From Lineus longissimus (lineage: Eukaryota; Nemertea; Pilidiophora; Heteronemertea; Lineidae): 64,000 nucleotides of DNA. Under the pieces are notes generated by a model. That model saw only the letters and a list, made by a program, of their open reading frames with translations. It ran no database searches and had not been told where the DNA came from. Shown piece by piece: positions 16,601 through 50,562 of this stretch. The position numbers were made by a program, and so were the translations under genes. Location of the stretch: NCBI RefSeq assembly GCF_910592395.1, contig NC_088319.1, positions 12,462,001-12,526,000 of the forward strand, in the 5' to 3' direction. Each line of letters opens with the position of its first letter. Within the stretch, counting starts at the first letter, position 1.

Positions 16601-19600
16601 GCCTAGTGAATCTGTCTTTGGCCAGATATAGAGTCCATGCAAGCAACACCTGTTTCCCACTTGGTGGGGTCCTTTGCTTGCCCTGGTATAGACACCAGAT
16701 ACGAGGGACCTTTGTTTTTAGGACTGTAAAGAGCCAGGCATATTATTTCCTTGAAAGCTGCACCGGTTCATCCAGGCATACAATCTTGGGTTCTTTCAGC
16801 CCTATTGCCTGGTAGCCAATAGTGTTAACCACTGTGCTATGAGGTTGCTCTAAGGATTGGTGAAAATGCAGCTAATTTTTGACTTAGTTCCATTTATGAT
16901 AGATGGAGGCATCATATTCTGCTCTCATATTGCCAAATCTTCAACAAATGTCTCTATTTTAGGTGGCTGTCCAGTGTTCAAAATCCCTGGATTCCTCCAT
17001 CCTGTTGAAGAGCATTACCTCGAAGATGTTGTGGAAATGACATCGTAAGTAAATATCATAAATTTGGACACGGCATTACCAGGAATACAACCCAAACCTG
17101 TGGATGAGATGGGAAAAGATCTCATCTTTTGGAGTGAATTTGGAATGAGCCTCATAGCCTAGTGGTTAAAACTGCTGGCTACCTCACAATAGGGCCCGGG
17201 TTTGATCCCCGGGAGAACCCAGGATTGTATTTCTGGATGAACCGGCGTGGCTTTCAAGGAACTAAAATTCCTGGCTCTTCACAGTCAACTGTGACTCTTA
17301 TATGTGTCTATTCAGGTACCGGCCAAGTCGCACCTTCCGTGGTCGTGGAGGACCCCATAAGACACAGTTCCAGTCGTGGCTTAACTCAACAAGGTAAATC
17401 AGTCATTCTTACGTCTCTTTACAATGCCAGTTCACTTAAAGGCCCACGCCATTCGCTAAATATTTGAAATCTGTTATTGAATTTGAAAATTTCAAATTCT
17501 GTAAATTTGTAACAGATATAAATTATGACAATGCGATTGTGGAGATGGCTATACAAATACTGTATAAGTACCGAGCTTCAGCCGATTCATATGCATGATA
17601 AATCCACTATGGCCTTGTGTATACAGCATTTCTATTTATGCTTTCAAGGTCAAATTTGGCAATGGTTTAAAAATTCGAGTCCTTCGATAATGTGAATCCA
17701 CTGCCCTTGACGTTTGAGTCCTGCTCTTTCAACTTACAGTCACGTTATCTCAATTTTCAGCTATTCGTATCAAACCAAGGAGACACTGGCAGCAATGTAC
17801 AACAACAACATGATCGACCTAGATATCATTGTCTCGTTGATCCGAATCATCTGCTTGAAAGAAGAAGGTGCCATCTTGGTGTTTCTAACCGGCTGGGACC
17901 AAATCACCCAGCTCCTCGATAAGTTGTTGTCGCACTATTACTTCCAGACGGATCGATTCCTTATTTTACCGCTCCACGGCGGCATGATGTCCATGGAGGA
18001 GCAGCAACAGGTGTTCCTAACCCCGTCCCCAGGGGTGAGGAAGATTGTGCTGTCTACGAATGTCGCGGAGACGAGGTACGTGGCAAAAATTGAAAAGCGT
18101 GCAGCAAAGGAAACATCGAAATCATTGGATGTAAAATGGCGTGTTAAGGGAAGGCTCAGTTTTGGTTGAAAAACTCCTTAATGCTGCAGATGCTGATGAA
18201 AAGGATGTCATGGAAATGATAAAACAACAGATATGTCCGGATATGTCCGGACGTATCCGGATATATCATGATGCGCCCTGACCATACATGCACTAATCAA
18301 TAAATTCTAAGAGACAACTCCAAGGTGACGCCAGCATTGGTGGCTTAACCTATTTTTAACACCCGGGCCCAGTTTTATTAAAAATATTCTGAATCGTCAT
18401 TCTGCACACAAATTTCAGCATTACTATTGACGACGTGGTCTACGTCATCGACTGTGGTAAGTTGAAGATCAAGAATTATGACGCGAGGAAGAATATCTCG
18501 ACACTAGACGACCACTGGAATAGTGTGGCAAACTCCAAACAGAGGCGGGGAAGGGCTGGGAGGTGAGGTTGCATAATTTTCAATCCTCCGCAACTATCTT
18601 ACGTTTTACTCCCGACGATGTTGCGACCCTTGCGAAATTTGAAGTAGAATTTCAAAATTGTGTAAATATGAACTAGATATATTTCAGCATTACCATTGGG
18701 GAACAAATATAATAAATATAATAAATACAAGTTTCAGCAAATTGGTATGCATGATATTGGCATTGTGTATAATTCCATTTCTATTTTCGTGGACAACCAG
18801 TAATGAGGAACAGTGTATCCCTTAAGAGTAGTCTATTGCAACCTTTGGACATTTCAGAGTAAGGGCGGGCCATTGCTACCACTTGTATACCCGCCATCAG
18901 AAGGAGAGACTGGTCGAGCAACATAAGCCAGAGATGTTGAGGACGAGGCTGGGAGACCTCTGTCTCCAGATCAAGGTGGGCACCAAGCAACTTCTATGAT
19001 AGCATCGGATGTGTTATTTTAAGCTCACCTTTGGCGGAGCTTATACAATGAGCTTACACCTGGGCCTGGTTTCAATTGCAGTAGCCCCTCTCTATTAAGG
19101 ACACCCTCAGGACTGGCGAGTGTTGTCCTTCATAGAGAGGGGTCCTGATTAGAGAGGTCGAGTTGAACGGAAAGACCCAATTTGAGACCAAAACTAGTGT
19201 CCTTAATAGAGAGGTGTCTGCTAACAGAAGTTCTACTGTATAAAGAACAGTTGGAGATCTGCCGGTCGGCCGGTTCAGGACCTGAGTTGACAAATCGTAC
19301 TCCCAAGTTCTTTTTGCTGTCCTTTGATCCGGCCAATGCATGCATGGAATTCATATTATGCCAGCATTTACCATCTTTGAAAGGCTATACGCATCAACTA
19401 TTAAAGATTGTGTTAGTTTTGATTATGTTTTCCAGCTCTTGCGACATGAGAAAATCATGGATTTCTTCGACCAAGCCATGGAGAAGCCGGCTGTTGATGC
19501 GATAGAGCGCTCCATTAGACATCTGAGAAATCTGGTGAGCTCACATTGTGTTTGATCTGATGTAGGCCAAGTCTTCTTTGCGTACGACTGGTCAAACTTT

Positions 19601-22600
19601 CACACTGTTGGTCCTCAAGAACGTGGCTGTGTGACGCAAATCTGCCTTTTGTTCCCAACAGCTTTTCTTGGAGAGGTGTGGACTCTGGCCAGGCCTCCCT
19701 TTGATTGGTAATCAAAGGACATTCTTCCAGGATGTGTTCTGGGGTCTGTTCAGAGAAACCACATTCACAGATGGCAGATTCACACAGGCCCAGTAGGCCC
19801 AGTGACAGGTAAAGTGTTTTTTATGTCATTCTGGCCAAGGTACTTAGTTGAACTCAGAAATGTGACCAGATTACACTTTCCAAAGGATAGTGGTGATGGA
19901 AAACACTAGATTATCCTTAGGGTGGGCCAACCCAATGTTCTTTCACGGTGTCAACTGAAGGCTGTCAACTATGATTCCGACTGCCCAGGGCTGTGTGTAA
20001 CATTACTATTTGTGATCAAGCTATAATAGTTTAATGACAAGAGGTCAGCCAAGTACCAGATAAATCCGAAAAACACTTTATAGATTCTATTCTACTAATC
20101 TCAGATTCTCTAAAGTTTCCCCTTCTTTTCAGAAAGCATTGGATGTCTACGGAGAGTTGACCCCACTCGGCGTCCAGTTAGCCCGAATGCCAGTCGACCC
20201 TCACATCGGCAAGATGCTCCTGTTTGCTGCCATTTTCGGATGTCTGGAACCTATCCTGAGCGTGGCTGCGTGTTTGGACCACAAGGTTCCCTTCACTACG
20301 CCCCCAGTAGGTTATCTGAGCGACTTTTGTAGAACGTTTGTTGAGGAGAGTTAAGACCGAAAGGGTCTTTGTAGCAGTACTGATCTCCCTATCTACCCAT
20401 ACATCCTAGGAGCACCAAGCTTGAGGATTGTATTGCATGGATATACCTGGTTCTCCCAAGGTTCGATACAAAATTAGAAGCTGCTTAATTATGTAACCAC
20501 TTCTTGCTGCCCCGAGTTTACTGAGTGGGGTTTATGAATAGAATATCTGATCATGAACGCAGTGTACCTGATAGCACATCTTCAGGTATAGGCCAGATAG
20601 ATACTGCCTCTAATACAGTGCCCATTGATTCATTGGTATAGATAGGCAAGTGGGGTGAAGTGCCCTGTTGAAGGAGACTAAGATGACACAGCCGTGTCCT
20701 TACGAGATGCGAACCCGCAACCTTCTGACACTCCACTCACTGTGTCACCAATCTCCCTTTATGTTTATACAACAGGGACATTTTCATGAAGAAATCTGCC
20801 GCGATACTGAGTTAAAGTGTTTAAATTTAGTATTGAATTATGCCTTAAAATGTTTTCCAGAAAAAGGAGGCTAAGCTGAGGGCTGACACAATGAAACGAG
20901 AGTTGGCGGAGGGGACGTGCAGTGACCACCTGATGTTCAGTAATGCTATTAGAGGCTGGCAGAAGGCAAAAGTTTGTGGCCGCAGCGACCTCGACAGCTA
21001 TCTGTACAAGTACTTTCTCTCCTCGGATACATTACGGGTAAGCTACGACCTCCTGGTCACAAGCCCAGCGCTGTAACCACTCTGCCACTGATCTCCTACT
21101 TTTCTCCCAGAGTTTTGAAATTTTGTTGAGATTTTGATAATTTCATCACTGCAGGAGCTGAAGAAACGCCGAGAACAATTTGCCCAAATTCTCAACGAAA
21201 TCGGTTTCATCTCAACCGATCAGCCTTCAGACAGGGACGCCAACAAGAACTCCTCTAACACGAAGCTACTCCGTGCCGTCGTTTGTGCGGGACTTTATCC
21301 TAACGTCGGGATCATCAAAACAAAAAGGTTATTGATTCCAGGTCTTGGGTGAGTTCTATTACTGGCAATCATTGATAATCCTTTAACTGTGGTTGATGTG
21401 CATAGCCTGTCATGCACATAGACCCATATTGTGTATGTGACGTGCATGTCATGCCCTCCTCAAGGCCATGGGAATTATTAATCCTGTTTACCGTCCACCT
21501 CCCGCATGGGTTCTGAACGAACATGAAATATTTTCATTATTTTAAAAAAAATCTATTTATTTTATTGTTGCCATCATTTTTTATTTAAATAATCTTTCCA
21601 GTGGTTCATCTTTACCTTAAATGATTGAAAAACACAATAAAAACTTGGCAGGGTAGGCTCTTCATCATAATAATGACATTTTTTCAATGCCTCATGTTGA
21701 TGACCGACCTGATTTCCATTTACTGGAACTTGCTGAATCGCATGTTTTGACCAGTAAATCAGACTGTAAACCGATAATGAATAATGAAAAATGAAAAAAA
21801 GCCTCATCATCTTTTTAAATCTCTCGGACGGTAAACAGGATTAATCATTCCCATGGCCTAATATCAATTCCGCAGCACTTGGTCACTCTAAACATACCAA
21901 ACGCACTCGGGGACGATTAGCTTCATCATAATAGTATTGATGGATAGTTTTGACTGGATAAAAGTAAGCTCCACCTTTCATTATTGGTATCAACCAGGCT
22001 CTTATATCTTAAATTGGCATTCACTTCATTTTGAAGGATTTCTACTTGTTTCTCAGAGCCAAAAATGGTGGTGCCAATAGTCAACCATTTAACGAAAAAT
22101 TCTCATTTGGTGTTTTCCCATTTAGGCAACACTACTACACTATCGACACTGGTGACGAGGAAGTTGAGCTTCATGTCAAGTCGGTGAACTGTGCGCAGCC
22201 CATTCCATTCGACTACATTGTCTACTTCCAAAAGATGAAGACAAAAAAGGTGGGTGTATGTCAGGGGAACTGGCCACAAAATCTAATATTGAATGGAAAG
22301 TACCAATTTTCGACTAAAATTTGTGTCCTTAAGAGAGAGGGTGACATTGATAGAGAGGTGTCCGCTAAGGGAGGTTCCACTGTGGCACAAAAAGTTCCCT
22401 AAGTCTTCAGAAATGATTGTTCTTTAAAAAAATTGCATTCATTTGAGCATGATAGTTCCCTGGTAGTGTACCTAGGGACGGTAAAAAGCTGAGGTATGAT
22501 GAGGTGTAGCCGGTAGTCACAACCTAAGGCTGCAACAACTGGACCCAAAAACACAGAACCAACCTGGCAAATAAAACTACTGTCACTCTGCTATGGTGCA

Positions 22601-23404
22601 AGAATATTCAAACTAAAACAGTTTCAAAATAAACAGGTATGTTGTAAGTTCGACCTAATATAATCAATTCCACTTTTCTAGCTGTTCATCTTTGATTCCA
22701 GCGGCATCTCTCGTAATATAATCAATTCCACTTTTCTAGCTGTACATCTTTGATTCCACTGGCATCTCTCTAAACCCTCTGATCTACTTCGGTGAAGATC
22801 TGAAACTCAGTAATATGGATTCCAACAGGAACATTGATGTGGCCGTCGACAGCTTGGTCAAGTTTAAGACGACTGTGGCAACGGCCAGAGAGATTGAGGT
22901 AACGCAACTAAATACTTGATCAGTCGACACACATCTTTATACTGGCAAAGCTTTCCATCCATCCATTCATCATATACCCTAAATGCACCGATCCGGCAGA
23001 CATGCTGTGAAAAACATCAAAATTTGTCACAAAAAGTGCGTGCAAACTTCTCCAAAATCATGGAAAGTGTCCTCAAGGAATGTTTTATTGCTTCAACATG
23101 AAGTCTCCGCCAGTTAAAATCTCATTAAAACTAATGTTTTAAGCAAAAATATGTGGGAAAGTTTGAAAAAATTACCGCATGAGCTAGGATGCAATCTGCG
23201 ATGGAGTAAACCGGGAGGCACTAAGTTGACGCTTTGGTGGCCTTTCTATTTCAGACTCTCCGTAGAGACTTGTGGGAAGTTTTAAAGAAGAAGTTTGAGA
23301 ATCCGTGCCCTACGGACTGGGCCGATGATGAAAACGAGGGCTTTGTGATGAATACATTTTTGGAAAAGATCACGCAAGATGCCTCAGTTGCCATCAGTGG
23401 ATAG
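13696..23404 (+). CDS. hlA: DHX36-like DEAH-box RNA helicase, 824 aa
   Basis: ATP-dependent RNA/DNA helicase of the DEAH/RHA family, closest by motif wording to DHX36. Exons: 13696-13708, 14195-14337, 14900-15079, 15315-15397, 15610-15684, 16064-16230, 16963-17044, 17316-17393, 17761-18075, 18419-18562, 18858-18975, 19436-19534, 20133-20306, 20861-21037, 21155-21348, 22126-22249, 22740-22898, 23255-23404; total 2475 nt, no stop. Motifs: I GETGCGKT (about 71-78), II DEIH (about 176-179), [28 protein letters not shown]; then winged-helix/ratchet ([20 protein letters not shown]) and an OB-fold region ([18 protein letters not shown]). Motif IV reads LVFLTGWD where the family usually has P for T. 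The 13-nt first exon (ATG in good context, donor GTGAGT) is inferred from phase and from hlC. The N-terminal G-quadruplex-binding segment of vertebrate DHX36 is absent. Family secure; first exon less so. Confidence 0.9.
13921..14164 (+). repeat. Repeat C (TTAA-flanked MITE), full length
   Basis: Starts TTAAAGGCGTACGCCGTT and ends AACGGCGTACCCTATTAA: inverted termini within TTAA, the target typical of piggyBac-type elements (family assignment is inference). The internal hallmark is AAGTTTCAGCAAATTTGTAT followed by GCATAATAACTGC. Ends 30 bases before hlA exon 2. Confidence 0.85.
15111..15237 (+). repeat. Repeat C fragment (5' half)
   Basis: TTAAAGGTGTACGCCGTTCG onward to the CAGATATGCATATACCA block; the right half is missing. 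It begins 31 bases after the hlA exon 3 donor. Confidence 0.75.
16263..16332 (+). repeat. Polypyrimidine (CTT/CCT)n microsatellite
   Basis: About 70 bases of CTTCTT and CCTCTTCCT units in hlA intron 6. A pure pyrimidine strand of this length can form triplex DNA. Confidence 0.8.
16721..16846 (-). mobile_element. tRNA-derived SINE (family 2), minus orientation
   Basis: On the minus strand it reads CCTCATAGCACAGTGGTTAA (A-box-like) and then follows the same wording as the plus copy at 17149-17288 (TGGATGAACCGG, TTTCAAGGAA, CCTGGCTCTT). Lies in hlA intron 6. Confidence 0.75.
17149..17288 (+). mobile_element. tRNA-derived SINE (family 2), plus orientation
   Basis: The tRNA-like head has an A-box-like TAGTGGTTAAAACTG and a B-box-like GGGTTTGATCCCC, followed by a non-tRNA body. 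Same family as 16721-16846 but inverted; together they flank hlA exon 7. Confidence 0.75.
17436..17650 (+). repeat. Repeat C copy in hlA intron 8
   Basis: TTAAAGGCCCACGCCATTCG at the left and the CATATGCATGATAAATCCAC block inside; the right terminus is worn. Confidence 0.7.
18600..18825 (+). repeat. Repeat C copy in hlA intron 10
   Basis: Left end degenerate; interior AAGTTTCAGCAAATTGGTAT and right end GAACAGTGTATCCCTTAA match the family. Ends 32 bases before exon 11. Confidence 0.7.
19079..19242 (+). repeat. Repeat A in hlA intron 11
   Basis: CAGTAGCCCCTCTCTATTAA at the left, AGAAGTTCTACTGTAT at the right, and the full internal core. Nearly complete copy. Confidence 0.85.
20560..20755 (-). 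mobile_element. tRNA-derived SINE, minus orientation
   Basis: Minus strand: GGTGACACAGTGAGTGGAGT then a B-box-like GCGGGTTCGCATCTCG, followed by a unique tail. Lies in hlA intron 13. Body family not determined. Confidence 0.55.
21045..21098 (-). mobile_element. SINE head fragment, minus orientation
   Basis: Minus strand reads CAGTGGCAGAGTGGTTACAG followed by CTTGTGACCAGGAGGTC, i.e. a tRNA-like A-box region only. It sits directly after the hlA exon 14 donor. Confidence 0.5.
21464..21858. repeat. Foldback element, 395 bp
   Basis: The ends are inverted copies of GGCCATGGGAATTATTAATC followed by CTGTTTACCGTCC (21464-21496 against 21826-21858), one mismatch seen. The interior is AT-rich without coding potential. 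Lies in hlA intron 15. Confidence 0.85.
22290..22386 (+). repeat. Repeat A fragment (3' half)
   Basis: Retains ACTAAAATTTGTGTCCTTAA, GATAGAGAGGTGTCCGCTAA and GGAGGTTCCACTGTGGC in hlA intron 16. Confidence 0.75.
22656..22771 (+). repeat. 58-bp tandem duplication covering the exon 17 acceptor of hlA
   Basis: Two units (22656-22713 and 22714-22771), each with TAATATAATCAATTCCACTT then TTCTAG and the first exon codons (CTG-T-ATCTTTGATTCCA). Only a few bases differ. The second acceptor (AG 22738-22739) continues in the frame shared with hlC. The first (AG 22680-22681) would reach an in-frame TGA after about 27 codons. Confidence 0.9.
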
Positions 23405-24715: not shown

Positions 24716-25325
24716 CAACGTATTGTTTTTGGAAGATGTCAAAGGTCAAGTATGGCCAATAATTGCCCAGAAACGATGACGACTTGAAAAACATAAAATG
24801 TGATGTCCTTAGTAAAGGGGTGGGGATGTGATGTCCTTAGTAAAGGGGTGGGGCATGACCGTCTGGAAACTTGACCTGGGGTTTTTCTCTTTCACAGTTG
24901 GTTCTTGTTAACAATACAGTCCAGTTTCAGTGAATCCGAAGTTTGTGTGTTTCGTTTGCAACCAGGTATTATTCCTATAAAAGCTGGGACATATTTATTT
25001 TCGAGACACTAGGATGGGAGGATTACTGTCACAAGGTAGGATTTTTTCTGAATTTTTAGCTTCTTGTTGGAAATGAATATTTCAGGGGGGAAATATATGT
25101 AGATATGATATTAATATTTTTAAGTTGGAAAATTCCATATTATAGTTAGCTGATTTGGGAATGGACGCATTTGATTCTGAAACTTTCAATTTAGAATCAA
25201 GAATCAAAATGAAAGTGCTAGTGTGATTCATTGAATTGATTTTATTCAGATTGTGATGAAATCTATTTCCTTTCCCAATCTTCTGTTTTATGTATTAGGC
25301 CTACATGTACTTTCATTTGTATTGT

Positions 25326-26440: not shown

Positions 26441-26497
26441 TTCAACAATCAGCACTGGCCTTGAATGACAACTGTAAATGATTTCATTACAGACATC

Positions 26498-29400
26498 ATG
26501 ACAGATCATTACAAAACGCTTGGGCTCAACCAAGGAGCCTCAGTAGAAGAGATCAAGAAAGCTTTCAGAAAACTGGCGAAAAAATGGCATCCAGACAAAA
26601 ACAAGTCAAGCAGTGCCACGGAAAAGTTCCAACAGCTTCGTGCTGCGTACGATGCTTTAATGGAACAGAAGAAAAGGGGTAAATCCGAAGCTGGTAGTTC
26701 AAGTAGACCACCAGGCAGTTCCAGCCGACCAAATCGTGCCCAAGCTGGTGGTTCTAGCAGACCCAATGGTACCCAAGCTGGTGGTTCCAGCAGACCCAAT
26801 GGTACCCAAGCTGGTGGTTCCAGCAGACCCAATGGTACCCAAGCTGGTGGTTCCAGCAGACCCAATGGTGCCCAACCTGGTGGTTCCAGCAGACCCAATG
26901 GTGGTTCCAGCAGACCCAATGGTACCCAAGCTGGTGGTTCCAGCAGACCCAATGGTGCCCAACCTGGTGGTTCCAGCAGACCCAATGGTGCCCAAGCTGG
27001 TGGTTCCAGCAGACCCAATGGTGCCCAAGCTGGTGGTTCCAGCAGACCCAATGGTGGTTCCAGCAGACCCAAGGGTGCCCAAGCTGGTGGTTCCAGCCAA
27101 TCATTTGGGGGATTTAGGAATTTCACCCGGCCCACTGGTGGCTATGATGAAGAGAGTGATGAGGATACCGGTTATCAGAGAAGACAGCAACAAGGGGAAG
27201 GACCGGGATTCGGATTTCGGCGCTATCAGCCTGCAGATTCAGAGGAATCTGATATCAGTGATGAAGAGTCTGAGTCTGATGACGAATGGTCAGACATCTC
27301 CGATGATTCATCAGGTAAATTGATATTAATGTCCCTATGAGCGTTTGTTGTGTGCTACTACAATTGGACACCGATTGATGTAATTAACTTTGTGATTTTA
27401 TCTTGGGCAAGGAAGAAAGATTGACACAACAAAAGGTCATTGCTTGCATTAGTGGCCACAGTACCAGAATGAAGAATCAAATTGGTTGTTTCCATTCAAT
27501 TTGACATCTCTGATCAGGACAACTCTCTATTAAGGACAGCAGTCTTCAGTCCTAAGGGTGTCCTTAATAGAAAGGTTCTGCTGTATTCAAATCGTTACTT
27601 GCAAAAACTTGTTCATCCGATAATCCTTTTATAGATGACGGGGAGACTGTTGATGATTGCCTGAGACGTCAGCCAAACCTCGATAGAAAATATCAGCAGG
27701 AATTCCAGGAGAAACAAACTGATGATTCTTTCCAAAAGATGCAGGAGGTTCGGAGGAATTTGCCTGCTCATAGTTACACAGAGGTACGAATACTCTCCTT
27801 GAGCAAGCGCCACAATCAATGATCATGCAGTCCTTAATGGTGGTGTGATTGCCTTTGATGGGTTTTGAGCTTTGTAACCCAAAATATAGATTGAAAACAT
27901 TTGGAGGTCGAGCATTCGCCACTTTAGCACCTCAACTGTGGAACTCTCTTTCCCCCACCCTGAGAGCTACATCGGATGTCTCAACCTTTCGCAAAGAACT
28001 CAAGACCCTCCTTTTCAATAGAGCTCACCAGCGCCGGTGAACATTTGTATCAAGTGATACAGGCGCTTTACAAATAATAATTTATTATTATTATTAATTT
28101 ATTATTAGCCAAAAGACTAGATCTTTGGCCGGAGGGCATGACACTGGCCCTCCTCCCCAACTTATTTCAATGGAGGCTGCACTGATTGTCAGCGCAGCAA
28201 TCGGGGCTATCTGTTCTTCCTGGCTTTCTCCTTTCTAGGCTCATTGCTTATAGCTGAGAAAGGTGAAATCCAGTAAGAACAGTGAGCGCAGATTGCTGAG
28301 CATATGATTGAGATTTGAAGCCCTTGAATAATGTAAGGATACAAAAGTACAGATATGTTTGGCTTGCAAAGGAAATTATCTCTCACCTCAACACTTGTTT
28401 TTTTGAATTCGGATAAAAAATAAACGGAATAAATGCCATTTTTGCAACGGCACAAGTACCTTGTGTAAATAATGAGAGCACGTGTTCAAGTGATGTCTTG
28501 ATCCTGAAGTGCGGTGACACAACGGTTGAGCGTCGGCCTTGTGATCGGGAGGTCACTGGTTCGATACCTGGCCAGTGCCACTTCGTAACTGTCAACTGGC
28601 CTGAAATGTCCTTGCGTGCGCTAGAGTGTGGCTGCCCTTGGTTCTCCACAAAGGTTTCTGGATAGGTTGGGTAATAATATTCGTGATTGTAAAGCGCTTT
28701 GAGACAATAGATAATACAGTGAAAAGCGCTATATAAAACCTCAATATTATCATTGCTTTTTTTATGACGTAACTGACATCACATCCATGTCTTTTTTTTT
28801 CTTCAGCGTATTTGTGAGACCGTTGCCGCCAATCAAGTGACCGTGATAAGTGGGGAAACAGGATGCGGAAAAACTACCCAAGTGCCACAGTTTATCTTGG
28901 ATGAATTTATCAGGAAAGGTCAGGGGTCGCAGTGTCATATCATCTGCACCCAGCCCAGGAGGATAAGTGCCGTGTCTGTAAGTATCTCAACAGATTCTGA
29001 GCCCCTCCCTTAGTGGACACCTCTTAGTGGGCGCATCAAAAAGTGCTACCAACAGGGCTGAAACTTCAGGACGTCCTATTTACGAGGCCTACGCCTGAAC
29101 CACTGTTGGCCATCAGGATTGGTATAGTGTATGTATGTTTGTGTCCCAAAGAATACAGAGAAACAAAGGAATTCTGAACTATGCCTCATTAGCAGATCTG
29201 GCCTCTATTCGATATCCTGATATCTGTATAACAAAATGGCAGCTTTTACTCCGGCAGTAATGCCTGTAACTCCTTGTTTACTTTTACTCTACTGCAGGTT
29301 GCCCAGCGCGTTGCTGACGAAAGGGCGGAAGTTGCTGGTGGAAATGAAAGCAGTGTTGGATACCAGATTGGCCTCGAGGCGTAAGTTTTAACTTTGCCTT

Positions 29401-32400
29401 AAAGGGAACTGGAACCGCCGAGCGATTTATTCAACTTTTCGACTTTCACCGGCCGAGAAAGTCAAACTTCCAACTTCCTATTCGAGTTCAGATTTGTAGC
29501 TCCGCCCCCAGTGCCCGAGCATGCGCAGTTCAATTTGTTATCATTGAGAATCATGTGAGAATCATGTGAGTCATGCGATCTTTCATTCATGAGTTTTCGT
29601 AGTAAATTCCATAGTAGTGACGTCACTCAATGATTGACAGCTAGGCGCCATGTTTCATTCATGCCTCGTTCTGATCACCCGATATGCGGGAAATGAAAAC
29701 GAGGTCATACGAACTGGCTTGGCGGTTTCAGTTCCCTTTAAGTTTGTCTGCAGGTCGATTGGCATGGGTTTCTTGGAATTAGTTTTCCCGGGTTTTTTAA
29801 TTTCTTTGAATGAGGCTTTCATGACTTCTCCAAACAGGATAATCGAAAAATCATTGAACTGAAAGAAACAATGCACTGGAACAGTGCCTGCCTGAAATTC
29901 ACAAGTCATATCCAAAACTGCCTCGCAACACTTGCAGATATATCATTACCAGAGATCAGTATTAGTGTGACACTGCAAGTGGCGGCTCATAGTGGCAAGC
30001 CGGGGTATTATCCTCCTGGCCAGGCAAAACCCATGCCTAAGTTGTTCCTTTAATACCATTTGTCTGTTTTTCAGTGAAAGACCAAGAAAAACTGGATCCA
30101 TTCTGTTCTGTACTACTGGAATTGTCCTCAAAATTCTGGAGTCGAATCCGTAAGTTTAGTCGATTCAGATAAGATTCATTTTGCCATGGTCAACTTTATT
30201 AAGCAATATAAAATTCATCTACAGAGTGATTCCGTAAGATTTTGCCTTGTGAGCTTTACATGTAATTGACATTTGCCTATTTTTCACTGCATTTTTTAGC
30301 TATAGTAGAATCTCCCTAAGCTGACACCTCAAGGACACGGCATTTGGTCCCAAATTTGTCGTTTCCATTGAATTTGATCTCTGTCATGAGGACATGTCTT
30401 CCCCTGCTGTAATACCATTCCTTCTTCTGATTCAGTCTACTGAAAGACGTCTCCCATATTGTCCTCGATGAAGTTCATGAGCGCGATCTTGACACTGATT
30501 TCCTGCTGACTATCGTGAAATATATTCTTCCAAAACGACCCAACTTGAAGCTAATCCTCATGAGTGCAACAATGAATGCACAGCGTTTCTCAAGATATTG
30601 TGGTTAGTATGCTTTAGACACTTAACCACTTCACTACTGCAGCCCGAAATGATGGGGTACATTGACGACATTTAGTAAAAGGCTCTAACCTCGGGATGGA
30701 CTAAGCAGGGTCTGGGGCCTTCTGCGATAATTAAATTATGCACCTATAAAAGGATGAATCTATTATAAAAGGAAGTGCCTTGACTGACATTGTAAGGAAG
30801 TCCGCACAAACCGGGTGATAGGCTCCTCTGCATTCGCAGTGGTGGGACCAAGGCTATGGAATGAGCTTCCAAATAGTGTTCGTGGCCAGAGTACCCTGGG
30901 TCGTTTTAAAACTGCACTAAAAACTCATATTTTTAAGAAATTCTTTTGAATCCTTTTTTTTTTAAAATCCCACTTGCACGTTTTCTTTAGTAATGACTTT
31001 TATTATATCATGTATTAATGTTTTATTGTTTTATTATAAATTGTAAAGCGCTTAGAAGTTTTAACAACGTTAAGCGCTATAAATGTTTTTAATAATAATT
31101 TTATTTTCCATTAAGGTCATTGCCCGACGCTTGAAATCCCTGGTCGGACATTTCCGGTGAAGAAGTTCTTTCTCGAGGATGCTATTGAGTTAACCAAGTA
31201 TGTGTTTTAATCCTCTCAACCCTCAAACAGCCAACCGCGCTTTTAGGCGCAGTTTTTAAATTTCGCGCGCAGACGATTGCAGCCCAACAGACAACGGCTC
31301 CAAGGGAATCCGTCTTATTCCAATACTTCGTAAATGATCTTCTGCAGTCGTTTGCATAGTGATGGGGCTATTGATGGGGGCCCTCGTGGAGACAGTTCGT
31401 CTGGGGATGAAGACATGCACCCCCTTCTGAGAAATCCTGGGAAATTCGACGTTTTAAGGGTTAAAAGCCATTCTTTAAACATTTGAAATTTATAATTGAA
31501 TTTTAAAATTTCCAGTTGCATAACACCTACTCAATATAAATGTCAGCATTGCCGTTGAGTATACAGATGTATAAATACTATAAATACAAAGTTTCAGCAA
31601 ATTCATATTCATGATAACTGCACTACGGCATTGTGTATCACTGCATTTCTACTTTCTGGACCGCCATTAATTACAAACAGCATGACCCCTTTAACTAAGT
31701 TTTATACATCGAACATGTCAAACTTCCAGGATGTTACAACTTACTAAAATTTATTTAAACTTATTAAAATGTCATGCTAGAATACACAAAATGAAGAATT
31801 TGGCCTAATAAAAGATATTTTGTAAAGACACCTTTTTCTATTTGTATCTCTTTACAGATATAAACCCAAGAAAACTTGGCCTAAGCCTCGATCAAGAGAG
31901 TTCTTTGATTTTGAGCGTTGGGTGAGGAGACTTCCAGACAAGTAAGTCCATTACAAGAACTTTGGAACCATTCCATGATTCAAGCCTTAAAATAAAGGCA
32001 ATAAAAAGAGCAAAGTAATATCTTTAGAAAAGAAAAACTAAAAGAGTTCTTCTGTAATCTGCAAAACCAGAAATTGAGAAAATATATGTATTATACCTCA
32101 ATCATGTCATGAACTTATATGTGACCCGTCACAGCAAAACCAGGCGCTTGTCGCACAGAAGATGAGCCTAAATGACACCAGGAGATAATGGAAGTAATTG
32201 ATGTGCTCATATTTCACAAAAGGCAAACAATAGAGAAATGAACAGACAGTCCGTCTCAACCTGTCAAGCTCAGAGCGACATGCGCCTGGTTTTGCTGTGA
32301 TGGGTCACATATCATGAGGATGTGCCATTGTTCAAGCACATTTTCTGCTCAAAGTCTGACAGGCCCTTTTGAATCTTTCAACTGTCAAAGGCCGACCCCG

Positions 32401-35400
32401 TTTGTGAAAAATTAAAAATTTGTAATTGAATTTGAAAATTTCCAGTTCCAATACGTACTGAATATGAATTTCAACAGTACTGTACGTTAATTGTGCTGAT
32501 AGATATACAAATACTATACATACCAAGTTTCATCGAAATTGCATGCATAATAACTGAACTACAGCATTGTTTATAACTGCAGTTTTATTTTCCTGAGTGA
32601 GGATTTTGACTGCGCACCCCCTCAAAATAGTCTCATTCCATTTTAAGGTATGCTCGCTCCACTAAAGATGTGTTATTGAACTCATTCAACTGTAATCACA
32701 TTGATTGTGATCTTATGGCTGCGGTAATTCGATACATCGCGACCGAAAAGGACAGAGAAAACAGCGAGAAAGGGGCGATCCTTGTCTTTATGCCGGGATG
32801 GGACGACATCTCAAAACTCTACGATACGTTGATGTCACGGCAACTCTTCCGATCGGATGCTTTTCTGATTCTTCAACTCCATGGCTCGATGATGCCTAGA
32901 GAAGAACAGGACTTGGTCATGGTGCGTCCCGAAGAAGGGGTCCGTAAAATTATCATTTCTACAAATGTTGCCGAAACTGGGTGAGTAGTGTTAGTTTCAT
33001 CTCTCTTAAAGGAGATTTTGAAGTCTAAATCAAAACACTGCTGCCAAGAATATGCCAGCAAGTGACTGATGGCAATGGCACCTTGACTACAATCTAGTGA
33101 GCAGTGCTTTACCGTGGCCTATTCTTGATCTGAACGGGCAAATATCACCATCTGTTTCACCGGATCAAACTGATGTTTTCTGATTGCGTTCGTGTGTTAT
33201 TGAAAAGTTGTTGGTATATATTGGCATGACGTGCTATGCAAGTCATCCACACTATGGGTGATGTGGCATGACGTGCTGTGCACGACATAATGAAAGGGTC
33301 AACCTGAACACAGATAGCGATTGAGAGTTTGTCCCCTGCATCTAGATATTAACATGTACAGTAGAACCTTTCTTTGCGGACACCTCTCTGTTAAGGACAC
33401 TAGTTTTGGTCCAAAGTGGGTGTTTCCATTCAATTTGACCTCTCTAATCAGGACACCTCTCTATTAAGGACAGCACTTGTCAGTCTCAAGGTAGTCCTTG
33501 ATAGAGAGGTTCTACTGTAATCTATTTTTTTCACGAATATTTCAGCATCACCATAGAAGATGTGGTGTATGTCATCGACAGCGGAAAATCCAAACTCTCC
33601 TATTTTGACCCGAGAAAGAATATGTGTTCTTTGCAAACAGTGTCAAGCAGCAAGGCCAACTCTACTCAGAGGAGGGGCAGGGCTGGCAGGTAATGACATT
33701 TTAAGGCCTACACCGTTTGCAAAAAGATTGAAATTTGCATTTGAATTTGAACATTTTGAATTGTACTGATAAGGCAGTTTTGTAGACTGATATACAAATA
33801 CTATAAACATCATGATAAATGCATTGCAGCATTGTGTAGAACTGCATTGCTATTTTCATGGACCAGCAGTGATTATGAACTGTGTGCCAATTTAAAGAAA
33901 ATTGGTTCCAACTTCTGCGGTCAGTTGTGTGATTGTTGTCATTATTGGTGTCATAACATTGACCGATTTTTTGCCGGAGGTGTGGAGTCCACAAGAGGCT
34001 ATTGTCAGATATTGGTTCATTTTGCTTTGGTTTGCAGGGTTTGCGCGGGGGAGTGTTACCATATGTACACTGCACACCAGGAGAAGAAGCTTGTTCAGTA
34101 TCACAAGCCAGAGATCCTTCGATCAAGACTCGAAGATGCGTGTATTAGAATTAAGGTGAGAGTTAGGAAAGAACATACAGAATTCAGTATTCTTCTTCCT
34201 CAGTGTTTGCCCTGTATAGAGGTGATTTTTTCCACCGTTTTTGTGTGCCACTACGATTCAGGTTTCAGTATATACTTTGGGAATTTGGGTGCAAGATACG
34301 GATGTTGTTGCCTAGAATCACAAGTGACCAGTAACTTGGGAAGACTTTTAATCAATCTCCTCCAAGTCGAATCCTTGCAAGATGGCCAACACTGGGGTGG
34401 TTGACGATTGTAATTTTAGACAACCCCTTTAAAATCTTAACACTTGAATGCTATGAAATTTTCAGGGAATGGCCTGCTTATTTCATTCATGACATTCCAA
34501 TTTTATTCTGATGACTTTAAACGTTGAACAAGCTGGTGGCTGTTTAGGATGACCCTTTCTAAACACTGAATGAAATATACACAAAAATCAAGTTGCCTTG
34601 AGATTGAACCAGAGAACCTTGGATTACCGGTTCACCTCTTTACCAATAGAGCTATCAAAGTTTCTCTTACTTATACTATTTATGTTTGTGCTTCTTTTCA
34701 GTTGTTGGGACGAAGTAGTATCATGTCATTGTTCAAGAGAGCAATGGATAGACCTTCTAAAGAATCTATACTCAGATCTATTGAGTTTCTTAAGCAATTG
34801 GTAAGAAACTGTTAGCCCTTTTTAGCCTTCCTTACCTCTCCCCAGAGGCCTGGTCCTACCGTAACTTGGTATTGGAATATAGTTCAATGGAACCTTCCTC
34901 AGCAGACGCCTCTCTATTACAGACACCCTCTCTTTTGAGGACACCAGTTTTGGGCCCAAAATGGTTGTTCCCATTGAATTTTACCTCATTTTAGTCAGGA
35001 CACCTCTCAATCAAGGATGAACTTGTCAGTCTCAAGGATGTCCTTGCTTTACACAATTTAAAAAAATTCAATATTAAATTTCAAATTTTTAACAAATGGC
35101 GTACGCCCTCATCAAAAGTTTTCATTTCTTTTAGGATGCTTTAGATGAAGACGAGGAGTTGACCCCCCTTGGCGTCCATCTGGGAAGCCTCCCAGTCGAT
35201 GTGCGTATCGGCAAGCTGTTGATCTATGGAGCGTTATTCTGCTGCCTGGACCCCATCTTGACCATTGCAGCCTGCTTTGAAGACAAGGCGCCCTTTGTTG
35301 CCCCATTAGTAAGTTACCGGAAAGTTTTCTATAACTAAGGTAACCAAGCTGTACCCAAGGAATACTTATTTAGTCATGCGGATGCATAGCCAGATTCACA

Positions 35401-38400
35401 ATCTGGAAATATTGTTCAAACTTTTGCCAACCGCGGTGATGATTTTCGAAATATTGGTGGTCTCCAAGTGATTGTAGTATGCACACTTTAAACTTGGTCT
35501 GGTATGAAAAATATTCCACAAAATGCATTTACAATCCCGGATCATGGCCCAAAAAAAGGTCATCAATCGACGAAAGTGCAGTCCTGTGGAAAAGAGGCTG
35601 TTTTGTGATTTGAATCTTGATTTTGATTGCCCAGGGCCACTCGGTACTTTCAACTGACCTAAAATGGCCGAAGAAGTGCACTTTATGCACCCCTTGGTTT
35701 CTGGATTAGGCTTGGGGAATGAGACTGTACAGTTTTGCAGTATTAAGCGCTATATGTGACCCACCACGACAGAATGAGTCGCATGTCGCACAGAAGATGA
35801 GCCTAAAATCACACCAGGAAATAATAGAAGAAATTGATGTTCTCAGATTTCACAAAAGGCAGACAACAGTGAAATGAACAACCAGTCTGTCTCAACCTGT
35901 CAAGCTCGGAGCGCCATGCGACTCATTTTGTCGTGGTGGGTCACATATGAGAACCTACATTTTATGTTCTACAGGACAAGAGAAGTGAAGCTGATGCCCA
36001 AAGGCTTATCATGGCAGACGGCACTAGCAGCGATCATCTCATGTGGGTCAATGGTTATAATGGATGGGTCAATGCGGGGAGAAATAAGGAAAAAAAGGAA
36101 TATTGTCAAGATAACTTCATCTCCAATTATTCTATGTGGGTGAGTTAAAGGCAGAGTACAGGCACGAAAAACTGCCAGTTACAGTCCAAGTCCCAATTGA
36201 CATCCCTTCGGCTTCGTGTCAGTTATGTGCAATGTATGTGCGAGTTGCATGTCAGTGACACGCTTATCGCTCTATGTTTCATGTATATTAAGCGTGACCT
36301 ACGTGCTGGGTTACGCATCAGTGGTGATTTAAGGGATGTCAGTTGTGATTAGGACTGTACACCACGGAGTCGTTTGGTAACTAACTATGTTGATGTCCAC
36401 TTGCATTCTACAATTTATTGCAAGAGAGATGAAAAAAAACACTGCATGCCATGTTAGTTGATGACAAGATATACAGTAGAACCTCTCTATCAAGGACACC
36501 TTCGGGATTGACAAATGCTGTCCTTAATAGAGAGGTGTCCGCTGAGGAAGGTTCCACAGTATATCTTAGTTGTTCTTTTGCAGCAAGTGAACAAAAAACG
36601 CCAGCAATTGGCAGAAAGTCTTTTCAAACTTGGATTTATTGGAAGCAAGTCTCCTTCCGATCATGATGCCAACAGGAATAGTGATGAGTTAAATGTTGTC
36701 AGGGCCGTTCTTTCTGCTAGTCTTCATCCGAATATCGGACCAATTGTTGTGGATAAAGTCAATGAACACACTGGGTGAGTCTAATAATGTTGACTTTAAA
36801 GGCCTACATGTACTTGTTTGTTAAAAATTGGAAAGTTGTATTTGAATTTGAAAATTTCCAATTGTGTAAATACAAACTCATTATAAATGTCGGCATTGCC
36901 GTTTTGAAGACAGATATACATGTACAAATACTATAGTTACCAAGTTTCAGCAAATTTCAGCAAATTTGCATGCATAATAACTGCACTACAGCATTGGGAA
37001 TAACTGTATTTCAATTTGCGTGGACCATCAGTAATTACGAATGGCGTACCTCTTTAAATGTGGAGTAGTGGCAGGCAGTGCCTGGTTCCCGGGTAGTGGA
37101 CCTGGGGACGGACAAAATGTGGAGGTACGTGACGTCACCGACGGTCCCTACAACATGAGAATTTGTGAGCTGGTGATTTTCTTTTTGTGTGTGTGTGCGT
37201 GTGTGGGGGGGGGGGGGGGCACTAGTATATCTGAACAGGTAAGCCTTTGACAGAATTCTGTATTTTTGTTGGCCATCTCTTAAATTGTTGTTTTATTCTT
37301 ATTTCAGCCAATATGATTATTATATCAGATCCCAAGATGAGAAAGTATATATCCACCCGAAATCGGTCAACTTCCAGAAACCAATCTATGAAAATTATGG
37401 TTATGTTGTGTACTACCTGAAATTGGAGACTACTAAGGTGAGTTGAGTGGTGAGCCTGGTGGGCATATCTCAGTGAAATACAATGAAGACACTGGAGTGT
37501 GTGCGTGTGTGTGTGGGGAGGGGGCTTGGAAGAAACCATTCAGTTAGGAAGTAATTTGCAGTCAGATTTACGTAACCATCATACAATGTCATATCCTCAA
37601 GTCGTAGCAACAATGTCATATCCTCAAGTCATAGCAACAATGTCATATCCTCAAGTCGTAGCAACAAGGTCATATCCTCAAGTCGTAGCAACAATGTCAT
37701 ATCCTCAAGTCGTAGCAACAATGTCATATCCTCAAGTCGTAGCAACAATGTCATATCCTCAAGTCGTAGCAAAATCAGCTGTTTGCTGCAGATCTTCAGC
37801 GATTGATTCTCCACTACTTTGGCCCCGGCCAAAAGTCCTGTCTTCTTCTAAAATATTGAGTCGAGAGTGAAGGGAAAAGGTGTTCCTCTACTGTAAACCC
37901 TGAAATTTTTGCAAGTGTTTCATTTTCACGATTTTTCGAGCAAATTTTCCTCATTCAAGTGTCACGAAAATTTCCAGGGTTAACAGTAGTAAGAGGGTTG
38001 GTGTAAATGTGTTTTTGCAACTCGCAATTTTCACCAATCAAAACTCTTTCTTCCCTAGGTGTACATTCATGACGTCACAGCAATCTCCTCAGTACCATGG
38101 CACTTCTTTCGAAAAAATAGGGAAGGGCATTATGGTCATAAGGTATGTTGTACACAGAATTGATTGCTTTTAAAGGCCCATGCTGTTTTTAAAAATTTGA
38201 AAATTTGCAATTGAATTTGAAAATTTCCAATTGCGTAAATACATGTACATACTAAATAAAGATTTCAACATTGCCATTCTATTACGGACAACCTCTTTAT
38301 CAAGGACACTAGTTTTGGTCTCAAATAGATTGTTTTCATTCAGTTAGACCTCTCTAGCCAGGACACCCCTCTATTGAGGACAGCACTTGTCAGTCCTGAG

Positions 38401-38609
38401 GGTGTCATTAAGAGAGAGGTTCTATGGTATGTTGGTCTAAAGTAGGAATAATAAATACTGTGGTCTATTTTCAGGATATCTGTAAAGATTTTTCCAAGGT
38501 TCTAAGAAAGAAATTTGAGAATCCGGCCCCCACTAATTGGTCGCAAAAACATACAGAAGGAAAGGTCATGGAATATGTTGTCGATTACTTCAAAAATGAT
38601 GGACAATAA
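26498..38609 (+). CDS. hlB: J-domain / DEAH-box helicase fusion, 1066 aa
   Basis: Exons: 26498-27314, 27635-27783, 28807-28977, 29298-29380, 30075-30149, 30436-30602, 31116-31197, 31858-31941, 32648-32980, 33546-33689, 34038-34155, 34702-34800, 35135-35308, 35975-36139, 36584-36774, 37308-37437, 38059-38142, 38475-38609; 3201 nt without a stop. Residues 3-64: J-domain ([11 protein letters not shown] at 31-33), which in known proteins stimulates Hsp70. 84-201: Gly/Ser/Arg/Pro 11-mers; about 215-272: Asp/Glu/Ser-rich. Then a DHX36-like helicase: I GETGCGKT (about 338-345), II DEVH instead of [32 protein letters not shown]. The J exon ends in phase 1 and exon 2 starts with the two bases completing GAT, as in the paralogues, so the fusion is read directly. 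Exon 17 has 84 nt instead of 159, shortening the OB-fold region by 25 residues. Start: 26498 has A at -3; an in-frame ATG at 26465 is possible. Function as a fusion is unknown. Confidence 0.85.
26747..27099 (+). repeat. 33-bp coding minisatellite in hlB exon 1
   Basis: Nine units of about 33 bp ([11 protein letters not shown] and GAQA/GAQP variants) and two shortened 21-bp units (GGSSRPN), all in frame. Synonymous drift is very low, so array turnover is recent. Long open frames occur in other frames and on the other strand over the same DNA, a by-product of a repeat length divisible by three. Confidence 0.95.
27470..27585 (-). repeat. Repeat A fragment in hlB intron 1
   Basis: AAATTGGTTGTTTCCATTCA through CCTTAATAGAAAGGTTCTGC and TGTA; opposite core orientation to the copy at 13352. 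Confidence 0.8.
27849..28095 (+). mobile_element. Non-LTR retrotransposon 3' end (RT C-terminus)
   Basis: An open frame to TGA at 28038-28040 shows the typical C-terminal tail of CR1/L2/jockey-like ORF2 proteins ([27 protein letters not shown]), followed by CAGGCGCTTTACAAATAATA and an (ATT)n tail. Truncated at the 5' end. Lies in hlB intron 2. Confidence 0.85.
28508..28750 (+). mobile_element. tRNA-derived SINE (family 1) with LINE-like 3' tail
   Basis: Head: GTGACACAACGGTTGAGCG then a B-box-like CTGGTTCGATACC. The body ends TTGTAAAGCGCTTTGAGA and AAAAGCGCTATATAAA, closely resembling the tails of the LINE fragments in this gene, as expected if the SINE uses that LINE's machinery. Lies in hlB intron 2. 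Confidence 0.85.
30304..30412 (-). repeat. Repeat A, degenerate, in hlB intron 5
   Basis: AGTAGAATCTCCCTAAG, then TTTGGTCCCAAATTTGTCGT and TTCCATTGAATTTGA. It ends about 23 bases before exon 6. Confidence 0.7.
30794..31100 (+). mobile_element. Second non-LTR retrotransposon 3' end
   Basis: Frame 30794-30949 reads the RT C-terminal signature ([32 protein letters not shown], stop), then GTAAAGCGCTTAGAAG, AAGCGCTATAAATG and AATAATAAT. It ends at the pyrimidine tract of the exon 7 acceptor of hlB. Confidence 0.85.
31461..31694 (+). repeat. Repeat C copy in hlB intron 7
   Basis: TTAAAAGCCATTC at the left, AAAGTTTCAGCAAATTCATA inside, CATGACCCCTTTAA at the right; TTAA at both ends. Confidence 0.8.
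32118..32311 (+). repeat. Repeat B (194-bp foldback MITE), copy 1
   Basis: Inverted ends TATGTGACCC and GGGTCACATA, extended by a longer imperfect arm (CAGCAAAACCAGGCGC against GCGCCTGGTTTTGCTG). Further copies at 35753-35947 and 46121-46317. Lies in hlB intron 8. Confidence 0.9.
32384..32626 (+). repeat. Repeat C copy in hlB intron 8
   Basis: AAAGGCCGACCCCGTTTGTG at the left, CCAAGTTTCATCGAAATTGC inside; ends about 21 bases before exon 9. Ends degenerate. Confidence 0.75.
33360..33521 (-). repeat. Repeat A, complete, in hlB intron 9
   Basis: CAGTAGAACCTTTCTTTG to GATAGAGAGGTTCTACTGTA: both inverted termini present. It ends 24 bases before exon 10. Confidence 0.9.
33701..33895 (+). repeat. 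Repeat C copy in hlB intron 10
   Basis: TTAAGGCCTACACCGTTTGC at the left and ACTGTGTGCCAATTTAAA at the right; part of the middle is deleted. Starts 11 bases after the exon 10 donor. Confidence 0.8.
34596..34668 (-). mobile_element. tRNA-like SINE head, minus orientation
   Basis: Minus strand reads TAGCTCTATTGGTAAAGAGG (A box) and CTCTGGTTCAATCTC (B box), without a clear body. Lies in hlB intron 11, about 34 bases before exon 12. Not a functional tRNA: no acceptor stem seen. Confidence 0.55.
34882..35046 (-). repeat. Repeat A copy in hlB intron 12
   Basis: GGAACCTTCCTCAGCAGACG, CCAGTTTTGGGCCCAAAATGG, and GTCAGTCTCAAGGATGTCC. Its right end is cut by a repeat C remnant. Confidence 0.8.
35056..35109 (-). 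repeat. Repeat C remnant
   Basis: Only the terminal part is left, on the minus strand: GGGCGTACGCCATTTGTTAA and AAATTTGAAATTTAATATTG. It ends about 26 bases before hlB exon 13. Confidence 0.7.
35635..35752 (+). mobile_element. SINE family 1, 5'-truncated
   Basis: Matches the body of the 28508-28750 SINE (TTTCAACTGACCTAAAATGG, CCTTGGTTTCTGGATTAGG) and ends in TATTAAGCGCTATA. Directly joined to repeat B copy 2. Confidence 0.65.
35753..35947 (+). repeat. Repeat B (foldback MITE), copy 2
   Basis: TATGTGACCCACCACGACAG at the left and GTCGTGGTGGGTCACATA at the right, perfect 18-base termini. It ends 27 bases before hlB exon 14. Confidence 0.9.
36180..36359. repeat. Repeat D (MITE), copy 1
   Basis: Termini TACAGTCCAAGTCCCAATTG and GTTGTGATTAGGACTGTA are inverted repeats bounded by TA. 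Lies in hlB intron 14. Confidence 0.85.
36472..36562 (+). repeat. Repeat A, short complete form, in hlB intron 14
   Basis: TACAGTAGAACCTCTCTATC to GGAAGGTTCCACAGTA, with the centre deleted to about 91 bp. It ends 22 bases before exon 15. Confidence 0.85.
36796..37058 (+). repeat. Repeat C, full length, in hlB intron 15
   Basis: TTTAAAGGCCTACATGTAC at the left and GAATGGCGTACCTCTTTAAA at the right. CAGCAAATTT is locally duplicated inside. Starts about 21 bases after the exon 15 donor. Confidence 0.85.
37186..37220 (+). repeat. GT microsatellite followed by poly-G
   Basis: GTGTGTGTGCGTGTGTG runs into 14 consecutive G. A similar GTGTGCGTGTGTGTGTGG lies at about 37498-37520. Intron 15-16 region of hlB. 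Confidence 0.8.
37586..37774 (+). repeat. 27-bp x 7 minisatellite in hlB intron 16
   Basis: Seven units of ATGTCATATCCTCAAGTCGT plus AGCAACA. They keep a frame open only because the unit is a multiple of three; the array lies between exons 16 and 17 and has no splice context. Confidence 0.9.
38170..38275 (+). repeat. Repeat C, truncated, beside shortened exon 17 of hlB
   Basis: TTAAAGGCCCATGCTG start and TGAATTTGAAAATTTCCAAT; cut at the right by a repeat A copy. It begins 27 bases after the exon 17 donor. Confidence 0.75.
38276..38431 (-). repeat. Repeat A in hlB intron 17
   Basis: CACTAGTTTTGGTCTCAAAT, CCTCTATTGAGGACAGCAC, and GAGAGGTTCTATGGTA at the end. Nested against repeat C. Confidence 0.8.
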
Positions 38610-49511: not shown

Positions 49512-50562
49512 GTCTCTAACAGACATATGGACAATCGCCTCCAGGGAACATGGTCTCCCACCCGAACTGTACCCATTGCCTTTAGATAGCAGTCTATGTC
49601 ATTTGGGGACAGATTCTTTAAAGAGACAAGCCTCTAAGAAACATGGCATCCCCTTGCCAAATTGTACCCATCACCTTGAGGAACCTGTCTCTCATGTGAT
49701 TTGGGGAGATTTTTCCTACAGGCAAATCTTTCTCAGATATTACAATCTCTAACAGACATACTGACAATTGCTTAAGGAAAGATGGTCTGTCTCCCATTAC
49801 CGAACTTTACCCATTGCCTTGTGACAGCAGCCTATGTCATTTGGGGACAGATTTTTTGAAGAGAGAAGCCTCCAGGAAACATGGCATCCCCTTACCAAAT
49901 TGTACCTATCACCTTGAGAAACCTGTCTCTCATGTGATTTGGGGAGATTTTTCCTACAGGCAAATCTTTCTAAGATATTACAATCTCTAACAGACATACT
50001 GACAATTGCTTAAGGAAAGATGGTCTGTCTCCCATTACCGAACTTTACCCATTGCCTTGTGACAGCAGTCCATGTCATTTGGGGACAGATTCTTCGAAGA
50101 GAGAAGCCTCTAGGAAACATGGCATCCCCTTACCATATTGTACCTATCACCTTGAGAAACTTATCTCTCATATGATTTGGGAAGATTCTTCCTGCAGACA
50201 ACTTCCCAAATAGAATGAAGGACAATCTTCTCAAGGAAACGCACCATCCCCTTCCCAAATTGTACCTATCACCTTGAGAAACTCGTCTCTCATATGATTT
50301 GAGACGATTCTTCCTGCTGACATCTTCCCAAACAGACTGAAGGACAATCTTCCCCAGTAAACACGGCATTCCCTTCCCAATTTATACCCCTCTCCTTGAG
50401 AAACTTGTTTCTCATGCGATTTGAAAAGATTCTTCCTGTAGACAACTGCCTCGATCAGACATGATGACCATTGCCTCTGGGAAGAATTTGTCCCAAACCA
50501 CATTAGAGACAGGTGTGTCTCAAGGCGAGGGATACAATTTGGGAAGGGGATGCCATGTTTTC
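49512..50562. repeat. Higher-order tandem array (about 235-bp dimers of about 120-bp units)
   Basis: TCTCTAACAGACATA recurs at 49512, 49746 and 49984 (periods 234 and 238). Within each period two related half-units alternate: CCAAATTGTACCCATCACCT and CCGAACTTTACCCATTGCCT, each followed by CATGTGATTTGGGGA-like DNA. To the right the units lose the dimer pattern. The last unit (about 50503-50562) is inverted: AAGGGGATGCCATGTTTTCT. Confidence 0.85.

Follow-up and report, generated by a model that had tools for sequence, protein, structure and literature searches.

Class A and class B J proteins are defined by a DnaJ C-terminal substrate-binding domain with or without a zinc finger, both of which class C proteins lack, and to our knowledge none of the class C J proteins carries a DEAH helicase module. 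Where J proteins and DEAH helicases come together on ribonucleoproteins they are separate proteins, and Cwc23 partners the DEAH helicase Prp43 in spliceosome disassembly. For the yeast J protein Cwc23, interactions with spliceosomal proteins have been described (PMC5473770). This system differs from the one presented here in that Cwc23 and Prp43 are separate polypeptides, and the essential function of Cwc23 is independent of its J role. In polyomavirus large T antigen, the helicase is a viral one of superfamily 3 that acts on DNA. The architecture of large T antigen has been described as an N-terminal HSC70-binding J-domain followed by a linker motif, a DNA-binding domain and the helicase (PMC3475652). 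J-domain and helicase are thereby joined in one protein as in hlB, the gene studied here; the domains of hlB are of DEAH type rather than superfamily 3 and no sequence relation is claimed. Large T antigen is the nearest functional precedent for a J-helicase. The closest known helicase is DHX36 (RHAU), which has the helicase core, HA2 and OB domains found in hlB; among solved structures, DHX36 is also what the neighbouring gene hlA matches best (5vhe, E 4.3e-237, with hlA and not hlB as the query).

The pairing of a J-domain with a DEAH helicase brings together two known modules in a combination that was not found described; searches of open-access papers gave none on a J/DEAH fusion or related architecture, as judged by title and the start of the abstract. 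The first-pass annotation of this DNA had named no established DnaJ class with a DEAH helicase, which holds for DEAH helicases within the limited searches reported here, but large T antigen does join a J-domain to a helicase. New here are a second J-helicase gene, the split of a four-gene group from DHX36, the lack of the RHAU-specific motif (RSM) in that group, and the inserted appearance of the J exon.

The hlB gene and its J exon

The locus lies in a 64,000-nt stretch of Lineus longissimus DNA (the window), the gene models of which are identical in sequence to database proteins named for this species. The published assembly of this bootlace worm, built from PacBio reads at 79-fold coverage together with Hi-C, is described as 391 Mb long and made up of 32 scaffolds, of which 19 are chromosomal (PMC8593623); the genome searched here comprised 391,118,348 bases in 30 contigs. 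Three tandem helicase genes, hlA, hlB and hlC, were modelled with splice sites chosen before the models were compared with NCBI proteins, and all three models are complete, with GT-AG introns and no internal stops (Table 1). The first exons of the two flanking paralogues, 13 nt in hlA (13696-13708) and 19 nt in hlC (40170-40188), both end in phase 1, as the first-pass annotation had read them.

The hlB model joins the J exon to 17 helicase exons spanning 27635..38609, is free of stops for 1066 aa from the ATG at 26498, and agrees letter for letter with the NCBI/UniRef protein P0001, the NCBI model being itself a prediction. The 27314/27635 join, at which donor CAG/GTAAAT meets acceptor CCTTTTATAG/AT in phase 1 and the frame is kept, is already present in public annotation, where the protein is named "DHX36-like" for its helicase only. 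The 18-exon open frame and in-frame join proposed at first pass were thus recovered, as was the full J-domain with HPD claimed for exon 1: the J ORF matches PF00226 (DnaJ) at 77.3 bits (E 9.9e-22, against a Pfam cut-off of 27.8), ranks third best among 42 DnaJ matches in the genome, and has an intact HPD in the context WHPDKN. The best solved-structure match of this domain is human HSP40/DNAJB1 (1hdj, E 7.5e-17). No DnaJ C-terminal domain or zinc-finger Pfam family accompanies the J-domain in P0001 or in the second J-helicase described below (Pfam, E 0.001), a likeness to class C (DNAJC-type) proteins rather than to classes A and B. The repeat units within the J exon (33 and 21 nt) are both multiples of three and encode a linker of G/S/R/P/N/Q.

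In the helicase part of P0001, the Pfam families DEAD, Helicase_C, HA2_N, HA2_C and OB_NTP_bind all score above cut-off, and the motifs together with the HA2 and OB domains identify hlB as a DEAH-box helicase. In a 9-row alignment, motifs I, Ia, II (reading DEVH), III and VI are kept, and motif V is altered to AETG instead of AETS.

Table 1. Positions of the genes, exons and domains discussed in the text (window coordinates unless a contig is named).
Feature	Position	Strand	Details
J exon of hlB	26493..27314	+	822 nt = 274 codons, phase 1-1; acceptor TTCATTACAG, donor GTAAAT
DnaJ (J) domain	26504..26677	+	residues 3-60 of P0001; PF00226 E 1.1e-20, 74 bits
Tandem repeat in J exon	26718..27097	+	33 nt with 21-nt variants, in frame; Tandem Repeats Finder
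J-exon tail	27143..27314	+	acidic and serine-rich; translation
Intron, J exon to helicase	27315..27634	+	
hlB helicase exons 1-6	27635-27783, 28807-28977, 29298-29380, 30075-30149, 30436-30602, 31116-31197	+	
hlB helicase exons 7-12	31858-31941, 32648-32980, 33546-33689, 34038-34155, 34702-34800, 35135-35308	+	
hlB helicase exons 13-17	35975-36139, 36584-36774, 37308-37437, 38059-38142, 38475-38609	+	
Speculative upstream coding exon	25014..25035	+	ATGGGAGGATTACTGTCACAAG (MGGLLSQ), phase 1, donor 7.9 bits
hlA	13696..23404	+	824 aa, 18 exons, without J; equals NCBI P0005 exactly
hlC	40170..48692	+	841 aa, 18 exons, without J; equals NCBI P0006 exactly
Second J-helicase gene	contig C10, 1415818-1427541	minus	NCBI P0003, 1360 aa

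The J ORF runs from stop to stop over 26465-27340 with its own stop codon at 27338-27340. Coding of the NCBI protein starts at the ATG at 26498 even though an in-frame ATG lies upstream at 26465, which we take as support for an exon start at 26493; this is probably the start of the J exon, rather than 26498 itself. The acceptor at 26492/26493 is a fair one (5.5 bits, tenth percentile), equalled by 5.8% of the AGs in the window. The cumulative reading phase of the model is 1 both before and after the J exon, and an exon of such symmetry can be inserted or skipped without a shift of frame. The J exon can therefore be a module inserted downstream of another exon, which may be untranslated, and the phase-1 sites on both of its sides fit insertion better than the replacement of an original 5' exon that the first-pass annotation had favored. 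No remnant of the J exon was found elsewhere in the window, where the next tblastn match (4463-4398, opposite strand) has an E of 0.027.

A candidate for a coding exon upstream of the J exon (25014-25035) would give an hlB protein of 1075 aa with what we take to be a myristoylation-like start, and could be joined either to the J exon or, skipping it, to 27635. In a scan that counted phase-1 ATG exons with donors of at least 5 bits at distinct sites, the 3.1 kb upstream contained 3 candidates; in control sequence the counts were 12 (over 13.0 kb) and 10 (over 14.5 kb). With a density this close to that of the controls the exon is no more than expected by chance, and it is missing from the NCBI protein; as a start for hlB it is speculation only.

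A second J-helicase and the relation to DHX36

The protein search for a J plus DEAH architecture that the first-pass annotation had proposed returned a second example from the same species, P0003, encoded on contig C10. Its modules are J and UBA followed by DEAH/HA2/OB as in hlB. The J exon of this gene, as read from exon matches, ends in a phase-1 donor, and is followed by the UBA exon and one more, both read as phase 1-1, after which comes the usual phase-1 helicase exon. The C10 copy in the genome searched (19,402,038 bases) differs slightly from the database copy behind P0003 (19,406,143 bases). Between residues 165 and 166, the genome sequence of this gene also has 60 nt that are missing from the P0003 isoform. 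The J-domains of hlB and P0003 are 52% identical over 62 aa, and their identities at codon positions 1, 2 and 3 (0.73, 0.71 and 0.34) form a pattern consistent with constraint at the protein level. The presence of a second J-helicase on another contig makes a one-off gene-model error unlikely, and from these sequence comparisons it is very probable that the fusion exists and is common to the two genes. In a rough estimate made post hoc, from 42 DnaJ matches and five DHX36-like genes with the J match on the same strand and within 2 kb upstream, chance would place a J match beside a DHX36-like gene 5e-4 times genome-wide for one case and 1e-7 for two, and two are seen.

The protein searches covered 5.8 billion proteins and pick up those of similar length that have 5-residue words in common with the query, so that they may have overlooked fusions in other animals. 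PF00226 was present in 2 of the best 120 of 6196 matches (7999 candidates scored). In a further search with 14 matches (8000 candidates scored, the upper limit) it was present in the query itself only, and in another with 6 matches (46 candidates) the helicase domain was present in P0001 only. Among the matches listed from these 5.8 billion proteins, no J-DEAH protein other than hlB and P0003 was found; a DHX36-like protein of another nemertean, Tubulanus polymorphus (P0085), has no J-domain.

In an unrooted tree of the helicase core, a split with support 100/99 separates hlA, hlB, hlC and the C10 gene from 16 DHX36 proteins, the worm's own DHX36 (P0004) among them. The 20 rows of this tree were picked from the best 120 of 6196 matches, and a midpoint root was used for drawing only. 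The same division appears in the 9-row alignment, in which a one-residue insertion after motif IV is present in all four paralogues and in none of five DHX36 proteins, and in which the RSM (of the type GR[DE]IG[ML]WY) is present in all five DHX36 proteins and missing in hlA, hlB, hlC and P0003. The four paralogues thus differ from DHX36 in their separate position and lack of the RSM, and two of them in the added J-domain. The RSM has been described as recognising G-quadruplexes (PMC13116126), and its loss suggests that G-quadruplexes are perhaps no longer the preferred substrate of the J-helicase group.

Drawn with the midpoint root, hlB branches first, the C10 gene next, and hlA with hlC last. 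AU tests rejected neither hlB+C10 (p 0.25) nor hlB+hlA+hlC (p 0.30) on the helicase tree, and neither hlB+C10 (p 0.37) nor hlB+C10 with a J-domain from contig C19 (p 0.21) on a 17-row J-domain tree, in which no branch was supported. With the branching order inside the four-gene group not fixed, the J-domain may either have been gained once and then lost in hlA and hlC, or gained twice.

The J-domain nearest to that of hlB in this genome, with 57% identity over 61 aa, is in the C19 ORF (L002, C19:10227454; 1462-2364). This ORF encodes 290 aa, among them acidic stretches and others rich in S/G, and looks like a stand-alone gene with a single exon. None of four helicase motif patterns was found in the 19.8 kb around it. 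An ORF of this type is a possible kind of donor for the hlB J exon. J-like ORFs that resemble one another (LNEDMSPFDVLQ...YHPDK and variants) are located on four contigs, C11, C8, C14 and C17 (L025, L028, L029 and L030, respectively), and these four may be J-domain copies that form a dispersed family.

Possible function and alternative readings

Our preferred reading, to which we assign a probability of roughly 0.6, is that hlB is a real fusion gene encoding an RNA helicase that would recruit Hsp70. In this gene, a phase 1-1 exon that encodes the J module, its S/G-rich linker and the acidic tail precedes a DEAH helicase of DHX36-like type. The core of this helicase most likely binds RNA and translocates along it. 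On its flexible linker, the J-domain at the N-terminus would be able to recruit Hsp70 and to stimulate ATP hydrolysis by it. Hsp70 could in this way be loaded onto proteins belonging to the RNP or condensate on which the helicase is working, and RNA remodelling would thereby be coupled with the unfolding or release of those proteins. Hsp70 recruitment, RNA substrates and coupling in cis are inferred by us for hlB from its domains, use of Hsp70 being plausible.

The absence of J from two of the four paralogues, hlA and hlC, counts against this reading, and agrees with a rather unlikely alternative in which the fusion is real and the J-domain is a passenger that does little or no Hsp70 work. The hlB branch in the helicase tree is long (1.15, compared to 0.6-0.9 for its three paralogues), which together with the change from AETS to AETG in motif V suggests that hlB may be under relaxed constraint, and both features suit a passenger; the HPD and surrounding J sequence are, however, kept in both J-helicases, with the codon pattern of protein constraint. 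Also unlikely, and slightly more so, is that the J exon is a cassette exon, such that the locus would make both an 801-aa helicase (by arithmetic) and the J-helicase. Its 822 nt in phase 1 at both ends and the existence of the J-less hlA and hlC would accommodate such skipping. A coding exon upstream is required for it, and the one strong candidate (25014-25035) is at chance level and not in the NCBI protein.

The 27314/27635 join bears on whether two genes have been run together, namely a stand-alone J protein of ~280 aa ending at 27340 and an hlB that starts elsewhere and is spliced to 27635. Splice sites were scored with a matrix trained on 50 other introns of hlA, hlB and hlC, the 27635 acceptor being outside the training set. 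This acceptor is weak (4.1 bits, below 47 of the 50 others and matched by 8.7% of 3811 AGs in the window), favoring two genes, as do the stand-alone appearance of the C19 ORF with its nearest J-domain and the phase 1 in which the 25014-25035 exon, as an example of another hlB start, would end, the phase also found at the end of the hlA and hlC first exons. Donor 27314, in contrast, is average (8.07 bits, above 56% of the 50 and matched by 1.5% of 3681 GTs in the window), close to the median of the three genes. Neither AATAAA nor ATTAAA occurs in the 297 nt between the J ORF stop and 27634, and at least one such poly(A) hexamer lies downstream of each helicase stop of hlA, hlB and hlC; the latter stretches are 808 to 1491 nt long, so the missing hexamer is weak evidence. 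The NCBI protein joins the J exon with the helicase, and the order of J followed by helicase recurs on C10, making a pair of separate genes improbable. That an assembly artefact set the J exon beside the helicase can be given hardly any credence, as the window contains no N, the second J-helicase is on another contig, and the assembly is described as resting on 79-fold PacBio reads with Hi-C (PMC8593623).

With the fusion reading of hlB extended to the group, a broader proposal can be made tentatively, at less than even odds: a small J-helicase family, so far only in this ribbon worm, in which one J exon was captured by an RSM-less DHX36-like ancestor, kept in two genes (one with UBA) and lost in two, and in which RNA unwinding would be coupled with chaperone-driven removal of proteins. 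A natural fusion of this kind would mean that selection can favor the loading of Hsp70 exactly where a helicase acts, and would provide a single molecule in which coupling can be tested through the HPD, a helicase motif and the linker. It would also be a case of domain gain via phase 1-1 exons in a gene family that is still mixed for the presence of J.

Repeats in the window

A dispersed motif, ACCTCTCTATTAAGGACA, occurs with up to 3 mismatches at 50 places between 220 and 47489 on both strands, compared to 0.04 expected (examples are at 4826, 19198, 33455 and 39867), and several copies lie inside helicase introns; it is probably part of a small repeat element. Copies of a second dispersed element, around AGTTTCAGCAAATTTGTATGCATAATAACTGC, were found at 14057, 36953, 39971 and 56948. 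Tandem arrays with a 238-bp and a 122-bp unit occupy 49562-50447, ~0.9 kb downstream of hlC. In hlA, a 58-bp tandem duplication (22656-22770) copies the acceptor and first bases of exon 17 (22740), giving this exon two candidate acceptors, the second of which is used in the NCBI protein.
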